A stretch of 64,000 nucleotides of DNA, from contig NZ_CP125378.1 of the NCBI RefSeq assembly GCF_034008635.1, forward strand, positions 2,284,001-2,348,000, read 5' to 3'. The DNA is from Pseudomonas sp. P8_229. GTDB taxonomy: Bacteria > Pseudomonadota > Gammaproteobacteria > Pseudomonadales > Pseudomonadaceae. Positions 3,795 through 9,168 of this stretch are shown here, piece after piece. Positions within the stretch are counted from its first letter, which is position 1; every line of letters begins with the position of its first letter. The notes beneath the pieces are model-generated. The model was given only the letters and a program-made list of their open reading frames with translations. It did no database searches and was not told the DNA's origin. The position numbers and the translations under genes are program-made.

Positions 3795-3881
3795 TCAGGC
3801 GCGCCAACGCCAGCGGGCGTGTGCCTTGATGACTTGATCCAGAAGTTTGCTGGTGATCAACACGGGGAAGGTCTCGTTCAT
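3795..3881 (-). CDS. Putative trpGDC leader peptide (28 aa, tandem Trp codons)
   Basis: A short open frame starting with ATG at 3881, with a GGA ribosome-site remnant upstream, encodes 28 residues ending ARWRWRA. Trp codons are positions 24 and 26, alternating with Arg, and a hairpin follows the stop. It lies about 30 bases inside the transcript predicted from the promoter at 3917-3945 and about 165 bases before trpG. This is the arrangement expected of an attenuation leader; attenuation of trpE and trpGDC has been described in Pseudomonas putida. Its last half is closely related in DNA and protein to the end of gph. Confidence 0.7.
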   Translation of the reverse strand: MNETFPVLITSKLLDQVIKAHARWRWRA

Positions 3882-3916
3882 ACGTTCCAGCACAGTAACT
3901 TAGCTGGGCAGAGCGT

Positions 3917-3945
3917 GCAATATGGCGGGGTCGGCAGGGGGTCAA
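3917..3945 (-). promoter_or_regulatory. Candidate sigma-70 promoter of the trpGDC leader
   Basis: On the minus strand there is a TTGACC -35 box (3940-3945), a 17-base spacer and a TATTGC -10 box (3917-3922). This is a good match at the right distance from the leader ORF. Confidence 0.6.
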
Positions 3946-3988
3946 ACTTTAGGAGGGTTCACGACCGATGGCAAAAGGCCGGAAGTTT

Positions 3989-4017
3989 TTGGTACTGTCG
4001 TTTCGTTCACCTACAAC
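3989..4017 (+). promoter_or_regulatory. Candidate estA promoter
   Basis: TTGGTA (3989-3994) and TACAAC (4012-4017), four of six matches each, are separated by 17 bases and lie about 20 bases before the estA ATG. Confidence 0.35.
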
Positions 4018-4038
4018 AATAAATAAACGGACTTGCTC

Positions 4039-5949
4039 ATGATCAAACAGACGTTGTTTGTACCGCTTGCCGGATGCCTGCTCGCCATTGCATGCGCCCA
4101 GGCCTACGCAGCACCCGCGCCCTATTCCAATTTCATCGTCTTCGGCGACAGCCTGAATGATGCCGGGACCTTCAAGGACACTGGCGGCCCGGCCGGCGCC
4201 ACGCAGCGCTACACCAACCGCACCGGCCCGCTGTACAAGGATGGCACTGGCGAAAACCGCGACCTCAACGCCACGCAGATTATCGGCGGCAAACTGGGTT
4301 TCAGCCCGGATCAGACGGCGTCCTCGTCCTCGGCCGTGCGTGCCGGTGAGGGTCTGGCGGATGGCAACAACTGGGCGGTGGGTGGCTACCGCACTGACCA
4401 GATTCTCGACTCGATCACCACGCAATCGGCCACCGGTGAGCGCACCCGCAGCGGTTACCTGCCCTCGAATGGCTTGCGCGCCGATCCGAATGCGCTGTAT
4501 TACCTGTCCGGTGGCGGTAACGACTTCCTCCAGGGCCGCGTGCTCAGCCTCGATCAGGCCAGCGCGGCGGCAGATCGCCTGGCCGACAGCGTCCGTACGC
4601 TGCAAGGTGCCGGCGCCAAATACATCATGGTCTGGCTGCTGCCGGACATCGGGCTGACCCCGGCGATCAACGGCTCGCCGCTGCAGGGCTTCACCTCGCA
4701 GCTCAGCGCCCAGTTCAACACTGAGCTGGTCAGTCAGTTGCAAGGCATCAGCGCCGAAATCATTCCGCTGAACATTCCGGTGTTGCTCAAAGAGGCCTTC
4801 GCCAACCCGGCGCAATTCGGCCTCGCGGCAGACCAGAACCTCACGGCCACCTGCTTCAGCGGCGACAGTTGCACGGAGAACGCCAAATACGGCATCAACA
4901 GCGCCACTCCCGATCCGACCAAGCTGATCTACAACGATGCGGTGCACCCGACCGAAGCCGGCCAGCGCTTGATTGCCGACTACGCCTATTCGCTGCTGGC
5001 GGCACCGTGGGAACTGACCCTGCTGCCGGAAATGGCCCAGGGTTCGTTACGCGCGCATCAGGATGAACTGCGCAACCAATGGCTCGCCGACTGGGAAAAC
5101 TGGCAAGGCATCGGCCAATGGCGGGCGATTGTCGCCGGGGGCGGCCAACATCAGGATTTCGACGGTCAACACAGCGCAGCCAGTGCCGACGGCAACGGCT
5201 ATAACCTGAACATCGGCGGCAGCTATCGCGTCAACGAAGCCTGGCGTGTCGGTTTGGCCGCAGGTTTCTATAACCAGAAACTCGAAGCCGGCGACGCCGA
5301 CTCGGAATACAAACTCAACTCTTACATGGGCACTGCGTTCGCCCAGTATCAGCAAAACCGCTGGTGGGGCGATCTGGCGATGACCGCCGGCAAACTCGAC
5401 TACGACAGCCTCAAGCGTAAGTTTCAGCTCGGGGTAAACGAGCGCGGGGAGAAAGGCGATACCGACGGCTATGTGCTGGCGATCAGCGGGCGCATCGGCT
5501 ACGACATCGCACAGCAGGCCAGCAGTCCATGGCACCTGTCGCCGTTCGTCAGCGCCGATTTTGGCAAGACCGAAGTGGATGGTTACTCGGAAAAAGGCGC
5601 GGACTCCACAGCACTGACCTTCGATGACCAGTCACGCAACTCGCGACGTCTGGGCCTGGGTATCCAGGGCAAGTACCAGATCACCGCGCAGACCGAAGTG
5701 TTCGGCGAGTTCGCTCACGAGCGTGAGTACAACGACGATCGGCAGGACCTGACCATCAACCTCAACAGCCTGCCGGGCAACCGTTTCACCCTCGAAGGCT
5801 ACGAGCCGCAAACCAACCTCAATCGCCTGAACCTGGGCGTGAGCCACAAACTCACGCAGGACCTGGCCCTGCGCGCCAGCTACAACGTGCGCAAGGATGA
5901 TGACTTTACCCAGCAGGGGGTTAACGTCGGGGTCAGCCTCGACTTCTGA
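4039..5949 (+). CDS. estA: Autotransporter GDSL esterase
   Basis: A 636-residue outer-membrane esterase of the GDSL/SGNH family fused to an autotransporter barrel. A signal peptide (residues 1-24, ending QAYA) precedes the mature protein. Block I is FGDSLNDAG with nucleophile Ser38; the block III asparagine is in GGNDFL, and the Asp-His pair is in [12 protein letters not shown] around residue 310. The last roughly 270 residues form a beta-barrel ending VGVSLDF. P. aeruginosa EstA has 646 residues and affects rhamnolipid production and motility. An upstream in-frame TTG exists, but the ATG at 4039 gives a normal signal peptide. It sits between trpE and trpG on the opposite strand. Confidence 0.95.
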
Positions 5950-5960
5950 TTGACAGGCAT

Positions 5961-5997
5961 AAAAAACGCGGCGCCCTTACAGGCGCCGCGTTTTTTT
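5961..5997. terminator. Bidirectional terminator between estA and trpE
   Basis: A ten-base-pair stem (ACGCGGCGCC, loop 5976-5981, complement) is flanked by six A on the left and seven T on the right. It can therefore end both estA (plus) and trpE (minus) transcripts. Confidence 0.9.
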
Positions 5998-6018
5998 ATG
6001 GCTAAACACAAGGCCAGT

Positions 6019-6108
6019 GTGGGAGCGGGCTTGCTCGCGAAAGCGGTGTATCAGTCGACATCAATATTGAATGTCAGTCCGCATTCGCGAGCAAGCCCCG
6101 CTCCCACA
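6019..6108. repeat. Inverted REP pair, GTGGGAGCGGGC family
   Basis: Arms at about 6019-6041 and 6084-6107 in opposite orientation, lying between the convergent estA and trpE genes beside the terminator. Confidence 0.9.
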
Positions 6109-6126
6109 GAGGCGGATGGTGTGGGC

Positions 6127-7608
6127 TCAGCTTTCCGGGGTCTGCTCGGCCAGGGCCACGGCGCGGAACATCGCGCGGCGCTTGTTCAGGGTTTCTTCCC
6201 ATTCCAACGCTGGCACCGAGTCGGCAACGATGCCGCCACCGGCCTGCACGTGCAGTTCACCGTTCTTGATCACGGCGGTGCGAATCGCAATCGCGGTGTC
6301 CATGTTGCCATTCCAGGCGAAGTAACCGACTGCGCCGCCGTACACGCCACGCTTGACCGGCTCCAGTTCGTCGATGATTTCCATCGCACGAATCTTCGGC
6401 GCGCCAGACAAGGTGCCCGCCGGCAGAATCGCCCGCAGTGCGTCCATTGCCGTCAACCCGGCCTTCAACTGACCGGTGACGTTGGACACGATGTGCATCA
6501 CGTTGGAATAGCGCTCGATGACCATCTTCTCGGTGAGTTTCACCGAGCCGATTTCCGAAACCCGCCCGGTGTCGTTACGACCGAGGTCGATCAACATCAA
6601 GTGCTCGGCAATCTCTTTATCGTCCGACAGCAGGTCTTCTTCCAGCGCCAGATCTGCTTCTTCGGTGGCGCCACGCGGACGCGTGCCGGCAATCGGGCGC
6701 ACAGTGATCAGGTTGTCTTCGACCCGCACCAGCACTTCCGGCGAACTGCCAACGACGTGGAAGTCGCCGAAGTTGAAGAAGTACATGTACGGCGTCGGGT
6801 TGAAGCAACGCAGTGCGCGGTACAGATCGATCGGCGCTGCCTTGAAGTCGATCGACATGCGCTGCGACGGCACGACCTGCATGCAGTCACCCGCGAGGAT
6901 GTATTCCTTGATGGTGTCGACGGCTTTTTCGTAATCGCTCTGGGTGAAACTGGAACGGAACAGCGGATCAGCCGACTGCTGTTTGCTGAAGTCCAGACCA
7001 CGGCGCGGGGTGATCGGCTGGCGCAGTTTCTCCAGCAGTTCCTGCAATTGCGCCTGGCCTTGCTCGTAAGCATCCGCTTGCGCCGGGTCGGCCAGCACGA
7101 TCGCGTGCATCTTGCCGGCGAGGTTGTCGAACACCACCACCGCATCGGACACCATCAGCAGAATGTCCGGCACGCCCAGCGGATCCGGGTTCGGGCATTT
7201 GCCCAGACGCTTCTCGACATAGCGCACGCAGTCATAACCGAAGTAACCGACCAGACCACCGTTGAAACGCGGCAGACCGGCGATGGTCGGCACGTTGTAA
7301 CGGGTCTTGAAGGTTTCGACGAAGGCCAGCGGGTCTTCGACGTCATGGCTTTCGGTCTCGACGCCGTCGACGGTGATGCTCACGTGGTGGTCGTGAACCC
7401 GCAGCACGGTGCGGCATGGCAGGCCGATGATCGAGTAACGGCCCCATTTCTCGCCGCCCTGCACCGATTCGAGCAGATAGGAGTTGGGCTGGTCGGCCAG
7501 TTTCAGGTAGATCGACAGCGGCGTGTCGAAGTCGGCCAAGGTTTCGCAGGCCAACGGAATGCGGTTGTAGCCGTCAGCGGCCAAGCGCAGGAATTCTTCG
7601 CGGATCAT
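6127..7608 (-). CDS. trpE: Anthranilate synthase component I
   Basis: A 493-residue chorismate-utilising enzyme making anthranilate with TrpG ammonia. The tryptophan feedback-site motif LLES is at about residue 45. The catalytic core shows [14 protein letters not shown] near 310, [14 protein letters not shown] near 345 and [15 protein letters not shown] near 410. The ATG is preceded by GAGG six bases away. It is the third gene of rpe-gph-trpE, 70 bases after the gph stop. The gph end carries Trp-rich codons and a hairpin, so control by attenuation is likely. Confidence 0.97.
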
Positions 7609-7747
7609 GAGGTGCCTCGTGGTGTGAGGTGCTAACAGTCAGGTATGCAAACGCGCCGGCGAGCCGGCCAGGAATCAGTCAGGCGCGCCAACGCCAGCGG
7701 GCCAGGGCCTTGATGACTTTCATCCAGAGTTTGCGGGTGACCACCAC
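7609..7747 (-). promoter_or_regulatory. Putative trpE attenuator overlapping the 3' end of gph
   Basis: The last codons of gph encode Trp258, Trp268 and Trp270 and end ARWRWRA, as the trpGDC leader does. The stop is followed by a GCCGG-CGAG-CCGGC hairpin (7655-7668) and then by trpE. A short leader could start in the gph frame at GTG 7747 (22 aa) or ATG 7723 (14 aa). The last 24 bases of this ORF, including the stop, are identical to the end of the trpG leader. Attenuation is inferred from this structure; no strong U-tract is seen. Confidence 0.6.
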
Positions 7748-8497
7748 GATGGCGTTTCCAGAATGGGATTGAGAAGCGTCGGCCAACGTTATCTCAGCGG
7801 CTGTACCGAGGCAACCGGGAATTAGCTTGCGCAGATCGTCGATCACCAGCGCCGGAGATTCCTCGGCAATCGGCCGGCCGTGGTTGTAGCCGTAACTCAG
7901 CGCCACGCATTTGACCCCTGCTGCTTTCGCCGCCAGCACGTCGCTGCGCGAATCGCCGACGAACAGCGATTGCGAGGCCGGGATGTTGGCCATTTTCATC
8001 ACGAAGAACAGCGCGGCCGGATCAGGTTTCTTCTGCGGCAGGGTGTCGCCGCCGATGATCCACTTGAAGTAGCGGCCGATCTTCATCTGATCCAGCAGCG
8101 GCGCGACAAAGCGCTCCGGCTTGTTGGTGATCAGCGCCATCGCCACGCCCTGCTTGTGCAACCACTTGAGGGTGTCACGCACACCGGGATAGACCACAGT
8201 CAGCTCATGGCTCGCGCCGTAGGCTTCCATGAACACTTCCAGTGCGTGCTCGGCTTCAACGTCATCCACAGCAGAATGATCGATGCCGCCGGCCAACGCC
8301 CGGCGCACCAGCACCGGTGCGCCGTTGCCGACCCACTCGCGCACCGACTCGATGCCGGCAGGCTTGCGGCCGAGGGAGAGCAGCATGGTGTCCACCGCCG
8401 CCGCCAGGTCGGGAACCGAGTCGATCAGCGTGCCATCCAGATCGAACATCACCAACCGTGGCAGTTGCCCCGGGAACAGCTGCTCAAAACCACTCAT
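7679..8497 (-). CDS. gph: Phosphoglycolate phosphatase (HAD family) with Trp-rich tail
   Basis: A 272-residue HAD phosphatase that dephosphorylates 2-phosphoglycolate. Motif I is [10 protein letters not shown] near residue 19, motif [13 protein letters not shown] near 121, and the Asp pair of motif IV is [16 protein letters not shown] near 178. Homology to ordinary Gph proteins fades after [20 protein letters not shown]. The last 40 or so residues end ARWRWRA and look like a trp leader peptide joined in frame. The start overlaps the rpe stop (ATGA). The length matches what I recall for other Pseudomonas Gph proteins, so the tail is probably conserved. Confidence 0.95.
7786..7814 (-). promoter_or_regulatory. 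Weak candidate trpE promoter inside gph
   Basis: TTGCCT (7809-7814) and TAACGT (7786-7791), 17 bases apart on the minus strand, would start a transcript before the Trp-rich gph end. The -10 match is poor (three of six). Confidence 0.25.
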
Positions 8498-9168
8498 GGG
8501 AGCGCCAGCGCCAGTTCGGAACGCATCTTGTCGATGACTTCCTGATAGTTCGGCGCATTGAAGATCGCCGAGCCGGCGACGAAGGTGTCAGCACCAGCGG
8601 CCGCGATTTCGCGGATGTTGTTGACGTTGACGCCGCCGTCGATTTCCAGACGGATGTCGCGACCCGAAGCATCGATGATTGCCCGCGCTTCGCGCAGTTT
8701 GTCGAGGGTGCCAGGAATGAACTTCTGCCCGCCGAAGCCTGGGTTTACGCTCATCAGCAAGACCATGTCGACCTTGTCGATCACGTACTTGAGCACGTCC
8801 AGCGGGGTCGCCGGGTTGAACACCAGGCCAGATTTGCAGCCGCCTTCACGGATCAGTTGCAGCGAGCGATCGACGTGCAACGTGGCTTCCGGGTGGAAGG
8901 TGATGTAAGTCGCGCCGGCCTCAATGAAGTCTCCGACGATGCGATCCACGGGGCTGACCATCAGGTGTGCGTCGATCGGCGCGGTGACGCCGTACTTGCG
9001 CAGCGCCGCGCAGACCATCGGACCGATGGTCAGGTTTGGCACATAGTGGTTGTCCATGACATCGAAGTGAACGAAGTCCGCACCGGCGGCCAGAACATTG
9101 TCCACTTCTTCGCCGAGGCGGGCGAAGTCGGCGGAGAGAATCGACGGAGCAATTACGAAGGGCTGCAT
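8494..9168 (-). CDS. rpe: Ribulose-phosphate 3-epimerase
   Basis: A 224-residue TIM barrel that interconverts ribulose 5-phosphate and xylulose 5-phosphate. Family signatures are [16 protein letters not shown] at the start, [15 protein letters not shown] with the metal-binding His and Asp near residue 33, [12 protein letters not shown] near 139 and [11 protein letters not shown] near 173. It is the first gene of rpe-gph-trpE and overlaps gph by four bases. It links carbon metabolism genes to trpE as in other pseudomonads. Confidence 0.97.

Follow-up and report, generated by a model that had tools for sequence, protein, structure and literature searches.

The last 44 codons of gph in Pseudomonas probably hold a nested trpE attenuator

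Why does the phosphoglycolate phosphatase (Gph) of Pseudomonas sp. P8_229 end with an odd tail that is rich in tryptophan, just upstream of trpE? A preliminary description of this locus, made by reading the DNA, had proposed that the leader peptide of trpE is fused in frame to the 3' end of gph, and that the translation of gph is part of an attenuator. We analyzed the window of 64,000 nucleotides that contains these genes (positions 2,284,001 to 2,348,000 of contig NZ_CP125378.1; all coordinates below are within the window) together with the corresponding loci of relatives. Our best explanation, which we consider quite probable, is that an attenuator for trpE is nested within gph by a fusion with a single origin; that the translation of gph is a second input to this attenuator is a part that we hold with less confidence. 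The genes at the junction are:

8494 to 9168, minus strand: rpe (open reading frame and domain match), whose end shares 4 bases with the start of gph
7679 to 8497, minus strand: gph, phosphoglycolate phosphatase, 272 amino acids (open reading frame), with a core to about residue 228 and a tail at residues 229-272
6127 to 7608, minus strand: trpE, anthranilate synthase component I (open reading frame and domain match), which starts at 7608

General models for phosphoglycolate phosphatases and HAD proteins end at residues 225-228 of Gph (TIGR01449 matches residues 16-225 and NF009697 matches residues 14-228), close to residue 230, where homology had been thought to end. The frame continues for 44 codons past the end of these models, to a TGA stop codon at 7681-7679. 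The curated family NF009698 matches Gph over its full length (residues 1-272), with 556.5 bits (the curated cut-off is 466). A length of 272 residues had been expected for other pseudomonads, and this agrees with the 272-residue curated family and with the lengths of 271-276 amino acids in 120 relatives among the matches listed. When we searched 80 members of the genus, chosen from the lower-scoring of 398, the tail was aligned through residue 272 in 74 of the 78 that matched. Alignments of Gph to 14 relatives with solved structures, among the matches listed, stop at or before residue 231. AlphaFold gives pLDDT values below 50 for residues 202-272, which is a weak argument about the tail because the alignment was shallow (31 rows) and because core residues 202-228 score low as well.

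The end of gph is similar to a second, free-standing leader in the window:

3795 to 3863, minus strand: trpG leader open reading frame (GTG start, 22 codons), preceded by boxes TTGCAC (3920-3915) and TACTGT (3897-3892)

The last 24 bases of gph match this leader at 24 of 24 positions, and the last 69 bases match at 56 positions (81%), so the reported duplication holds up at both lengths. On both strands of the window, every other ungapped 69-mer matches at fewer than 42 bases, and the pattern of the leader's end occurs just twice in the whole genome, before trpE and before trpG. Given these results, the duplication is real; chance resemblance between the end of gph and the trpG leader was ruled out by the 69-mer and whole-genome searches. 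Among relatives whose trpG has the leader, the boxes are found at 72 of 74 junctions, and a GTG codon is at the equivalent place in 71 of 74. Considering the 152 junctions with both trpE and trpG in the locus, trpG has its own leader in 0 of the 84 cases where it is adjacent to trpE and in 61 of the 68 cases where the two are split. Because 60 of these 61 are in the clade with fused genes (see below) and many of them are close kin, this pattern represents few independent events. In the window, the esterase gene estP (4033-5949, plus strand) lies between trpE and trpG, in the interval 3797-6127. Just past the trp genes, at 1059-1118, is an inverted repeat with perfect 21-base arms (GCGAGCAGGCTCACTCCTACA), which is REP-like by eye.

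To see how the leader is distributed, we collected 313 gph/trpE loci from genomes of the genus, the family, and the order. After dropping loci that lacked trpE, that had fewer than 150 bases upstream, or whose junction was identical to another, 281 distinct junctions were kept. This sample is uneven: the named loci are close relatives, and other genomes were partly chosen for low scores (thinned representatives are used where stated). We considered the leader to be present if a peptide ended with [RK]W[RK]W and up to two more residues. By this rule, the leader is found in 256 of 281 junctions: in 172 of these it is an in-frame (fused) extension of gph, in 75 it is separate from gph, in 3 it overlaps gph in another frame, and in 6 there is no gph nearby. 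It is absent by the rule from 25 junctions, 20 of which are from other families of the order; some of the 25 have other W-rich frames. One 14-residue leader end is the commonest among both the fused junctions (146/172) and the separate junctions (37/75). The leader peptide is thus independent of being in Gph. The earlier description of the fused tail as the trpE leader peptide is supported by the comparison. A few loci are unusual. Three loci from one genus of the family (L189, L194, and L195) have a different leader (GTLPAASGRWRWRV), and gph is missing or about 1 kb upstream. In L198, a gph of 261 amino acids overlaps trpE by 4 bases, and the leader was not found at that junction. The gph frame is broken near residue 165 in L308 (an assembly of 2 contigs) and in L311 (1 contig), with intact boxes and leader, which could be real or could be a sequencing error. 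L312, whose assembly has 9% contamination, has two tandem matches to gph upstream of trpE.

The comparison of the 281 junctions indicates what the tail contains. From codon 229 onward, it holds conserved boxes, bases that resemble a Shine-Dalgarno (SD) sequence, and a leader of 22 codons:

7809 to 7814, minus strand: putative -35 box of a trpE promoter, TTGCCT, identified by comparison only; codon 229 is TGC where relatives have the stop codon TGA
7786 to 7791, minus strand: putative -10 box of the trpE promoter, TAACGT, within gph codons 236-238 and separated from the -35 box by 17 nt, identified by comparison
7756 to 7759, minus strand: SD-like GGAA, 8 nt before GTG251; codon 247 keeps GA at its second and third positions, with 3 changes
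7679 to 7747, minus strand: putative trpE leader open reading frame, with a GTG start and 22 codons, in the frame of gph and sharing its stop codon, identified by comparison
7724 to 7726, minus strand: Trp codon 258 (TGG)
7688 to 7696, minus strand: Trp codons 268 and 270 (TGG CGT TGG)

The bases of the three Trp codons, which had been listed beforehand, were checked at 7726-7724, 7696-7694, and 7690-7688.

In other words, the last 44 codons of gph are probably the control region of trpE, read as protein. A pattern of TTGnnn, 17 nt, and TAnnnT is present in 172/172 fused junctions and in 66/75 separate ones; another 8 of the separate junctions have a spacer of 16 or 18 nt, and 1 lacks the pattern. 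A control stretch of equal length, 200 nt further upstream, has the pattern in just 1 of 255 cases. In the 96 fused representatives, the first T, the A, and the last T of the -10 box had zero changes. The two putative boxes together match the sigma-70 consensus at 7 of 12 bases, and consensus scans of 7550-7900 found neither a promoter nor a terminator. Since the boxes are poor by consensus and the standard scan is silent, the case for a trpE promoter is a comparative one.

Both GTG251 and TGC229 are invariant (each 96/96 fused representatives), while codon 252, which is mostly Val, varies. GTG251 is preceded by GGAA or by GAGA-like bases, usually 8-10 nt upstream, and the SD match is mostly only 3 bases. 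From the invariance of GTG251 and these upstream bases, we take the leader to be the 22-codon frame at 7747-7679 with its own start, which fits the idea that a ribosome could start inside gph. We also considered ATG259 as the start of the leader, and we rejected it because it is not universal (it is ACC in 2/96) and GTG251 is. The last 22 residues include three Trp codons in 93 of 96 fused representatives. In 245 of 256 junctions, 59-100 nt separate the leader's stop codon from trpE.

Across the 96 fused representatives, parsimony gave 5.05, 3.32, and 18.77 changes per site at codon positions 1, 2, and 3 of the gph core; 10.71, 7.71, and 10.89 in the linker (codons 223-250); and 1.95, 1.36, and 4.77 in the leader. 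By these counts, the linker evolves almost as non-coding DNA, except for the boxes, and the leader is constrained at all positions, with roughly 4 times fewer changes at third positions than in the gph core. Alignment across Pseudomonas had been suggested as a check, and it agrees: the leader is kept at the level of nucleotides and Trp codons, and the linker before it drifts.

Nevertheless, the linker's reading frame is kept. Across the 96 fused rows, the distance from the -10 box to GTG takes the values 41, 44, 47, 50, 53, or 74, all equal modulo 3. Changes in the linker's length come in threes in 6 of 8 cases in the fused clade and in 7 of 34 cases in unfused rows (P = 0.006, Fisher exact test; P = 0.002 without a change in L276, which was already un-fused). 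Considering tree length, the fused clade has 2 indels that are not multiples of three on a length of 6.5, as compared to 27 on a length of 9.9 in unfused rows; for multiples of three, the counts are 6 and 7. This comparison used 51 of the 53 unfused representatives. Excluded were L311 (gph is broken upstream), L312 (gph is duplicated), and the unfused rows that lacked boxes or GTG; L308 had already been removed by thinning. As the indels in the linker mostly preserve the frame, the open frame of gph seems to be kept even though its amino acids are free, and translation of gph into the leader seems to be under selection. Gains of stop codons give a weaker hint. In the frame of gph, we found 0 gains versus 14.4 expected in codons 230-250, or versus 5.7-6.8 expected for the last 27-36 bases. 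Control counts were 13 versus 14.5-16.9 expected in another frame of fused rows, 0 versus 3.0-3.6 expected in their third frame, and 2-5 versus 10-15 expected in unfused rows, so that the expectation can be 3-7 times too high. Because the controls disagree, this test is only suggestive of selection on the frame.

How did gph come to include the leader? In unfused relatives, the boxes and the leader sit outside of gph, in any frame. Among 53 unfused representatives, gph ends at the TGA within the -35 box (TTGATT or TTGATC) in 9 cases and at the TAG or TAA that opens the -10 box in 16 cases; in the remaining 28, gph ends elsewhere or no box was identified. At fused junctions, TGC takes the place of TGA in 172/172 cases, always with the -35 box in the phase T-TGC, and their -10 box is split across codons so that it contains no stop. 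To place these changes, we built a tree from TrpE and the Gph core for 156 representatives, thinned from 246 at 93% DNA identity. With FastTree, the fused rows fall in one clade (support 0.95). In a quick tree from IQ-TREE, an unfused row with a long branch (L193) falls inside that clade, with 4 state changes. Holding the 103 rows as a clade was not rejected by IQ-TREE's AU test (P = 0.79), and it gave a higher likelihood than the free quick tree. On the simplest history, it looks like the fusion arose once, by one loss of a stop codon in one clade, and the TGC in all 172 fused junctions fits this. We infer that the ancestor had TGA at the fusion site. The TGA within the -35 box TTGATT would have changed to TGC, which would leave gph open in the leader's frame as far as the leader's stop. 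Two lineages of the clade have lost the fusion and retained the leader: L116/L118/L260 (whose gph of 252 amino acids is out of frame with the leader) and L274-L277 (235 amino acids).

A GC hairpin between the gph stop codon and trpE had been pointed out, and it is present at 7668-7655. The relevant elements, each found by comparison, are:

7655 to 7668, minus strand: GC hairpin GCCGG-CUCG-CCGGC after the leader stop, a putative terminator
7647 to 7652, minus strand: GUUUGC directly downstream of the hairpin, which is complementary to the leader's GCAAAC
7729 to 7734, minus strand: GCAAAC, leader codons 5-7, the potential partner of GUUUGC

A perfect stem of at least 5 pairs follows the leader stop in 57 of 71 thinned representatives (shuffled sequences gave a mean of 7.8 and a maximum of 13). 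The hairpin begins about 6-12 nt past the leader stop, and its arms vary with compensation (GCCGG/CCGGC, GCCGC/GCGGC, or GGCTTT/AAAGCC). After it there is UUU only, without a long U run, and TTTG is close behind in 49 of the 71. The 3' side of the hairpin and the TTTG motif can be paired with leader codons 4-9 (around GCAAACUCUGG). Across 69 thinned rows, this pairing averaged -12.28 kcal/mol with matched partners versus -11.36 kcal/mol with permuted partners, and 0 of 5000 permutations did as well; by subset, the counts were 4/5000 for unfused rows and 128/5000 for fused and overlapping rows. Because the pairing uses the hairpin's 3' arm in many rows, it would compete with the hairpin, which suits a switch. 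The fold of the whole trpE leader is no more stable than shuffles (z = 0.16), nor is the stretch downstream of the leader stop. The local hairpin, with its compensatory changes, and the long-range pairing are the only RNA features that stand out. In L306, the leader stop is 59 nt from trpE and the hairpin is missing, with the leader and CGTTTGC retained, so this locus is a natural test of the terminator. A search of the window against Rfam release 15 (4227 families) found no trp leader at the gathering cut-off, just the small RNA RsmY (at 62234-62117, minus strand) and a tRNA.

Sequence comparison establishes the anatomy of the junction, its conservation and distribution, its restriction to one clade in its fused form, and the keeping of the frame. 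The junction most likely works as a ribosome-mediated attenuator that lies within gph and has a promoter and a leader of its own; we infer the activity of the promoter and of the leader. A promoter inside gph would give a short transcript, ribosomes would start at GTG251 and read the three Trp codons of the 22-codon leader, and whether or not they stall at those codons would decide if transcription continues past the hairpin into trpE. Transcripts of rpe-gph-trpE may also exist, given the 4-base overlap of rpe and gph (by which the two are probably co-transcribed) and the lack of a terminator other than the hairpin in our scan. On such transcripts, the ribosomes that finish gph would read the same Trp codons, as a second input. 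For this second input, the evidence is only suggestive. That gph translation is part of the attenuator had been proposed outright: the in-frame indels favor this, but unfused relatives have a complete leader outside of gph, and the fusion was lost twice. Since two lineages un-fused and kept the leader, gph's ribosomes are not essential to it. Still, it may be that one frame encodes both an enzyme and a sensor. A shortage of tryptophan would then stall the ribosomes that are completing Gph on its last codons and let the transcription of trpE continue, which would tie the completion of Gph to the tryptophan supply. We offer this tentatively, as slightly less probable than not.

Three other readings should be weighed against a nested attenuator that gph's ribosomes help to control. 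The closest is that the nested attenuator is real and self-contained, and that gph merely lost its stop codon, so that its ribosomes have no role in control. This would explain why the boxes, the GTG, and the leader are much alike where gph stops upstream, why the linker's amino acids drift with nearly no codon periodicity, and why the leader outlived the fusion in two lineages. It is harder to reconcile with the rarity of linker indels that break the frame in the fused clade, as indels of multiples of three are not rare there. We consider it a serious contender, with a bit under an even chance of being right. The rarity of frame breaks could have another cause: perhaps the frame is kept only because out-of-frame ribosomes from gph would enter the hairpin and melt it. 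Indeed, after a +2 shift past the -10 box, gph would be read beyond the leader stop in 75 of 96 fused rows (ending before trpE in 57 and beyond the start of trpE in 18). However, after a +1 shift, gph would end inside the leader in 92 of 96, and yet there is a single frame break in a still-fused lineage (the L116 group). No stop codon was seen in the linker either, which is a weak test. Because +1 shifts would stop inside the leader, avoiding entry into the hairpin explains only part of the frame bias, and we think that it is unlikely to be the sole reason.

Alternatively, the WRWR tail might serve Gph itself, in its localisation, binding, or stability, with the similarity to the trpG leader being secondary. 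A protein function would account for the conservation of the leader's residues as protein, for a curated family that spans the tail, and for the kept frame. But the peptide is conserved outside of Gph as well, in the 75 separate junctions, and so are its third codon positions; the alignments to solved relatives end at residue 231 or earlier; and the low AlphaFold scores point the same way, weakly. We consider this reading very improbable. Overall, we prefer the nested attenuator, which explains why Gph of Pseudomonas has an odd tail. If it is correct, our results suggest that a single substitution, in a promoter box that also served as a stop codon, can turn a promoter, a start codon, and a regulatory peptide into the coding sequence of a neighbor, and that such a nested arrangement can persist across a large clade. 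The fused, separate, overlapping, and un-fused junctions are natural controls for whether upstream translation feeds an attenuator.

In the trpL attenuator of E. coli, the trp genes are preceded by a GC hairpin and by a short open reading frame in which Trp codons are next to each other. The trpE leader of Pseudomonas is alike in having a short frame with Trp codons and a GC hairpin before trp genes; it differs in that it has no match to an Rfam leader, no long U run, and a hairpin just 6-12 nt or so past its stop codon, and in that it lies within an enzyme gene upstream of trpE and shares its frame. Among the matches listed in the open-access literature, we recognised no paper that describes a trpE leader inside gph. 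Regulation by attenuation is reported for trpE and trpGDC of P. putida (Olekhnovich and Gussin 2001, J Bacteriol 183:3256), and these are the same operons as here. In P. aeruginosa, premature 3' ends are described near a potential upstream open reading frame with a GTG start at trpGDC (PMC8297930). That leader is the free-standing copy upstream of trpG, and its GTG start agrees with our analysis; the article concerns trpGDC, and its main text does not use "gph" and has "trpE" solely in a cited title. Finally, the NCBIfam model NF009698 (PRK13223; 272 amino acids) covers residues 1-272 of Gph and so takes the leader peptide to belong to the enzyme. More broadly, curated protein families may include regulatory sequence that is presented as protein.
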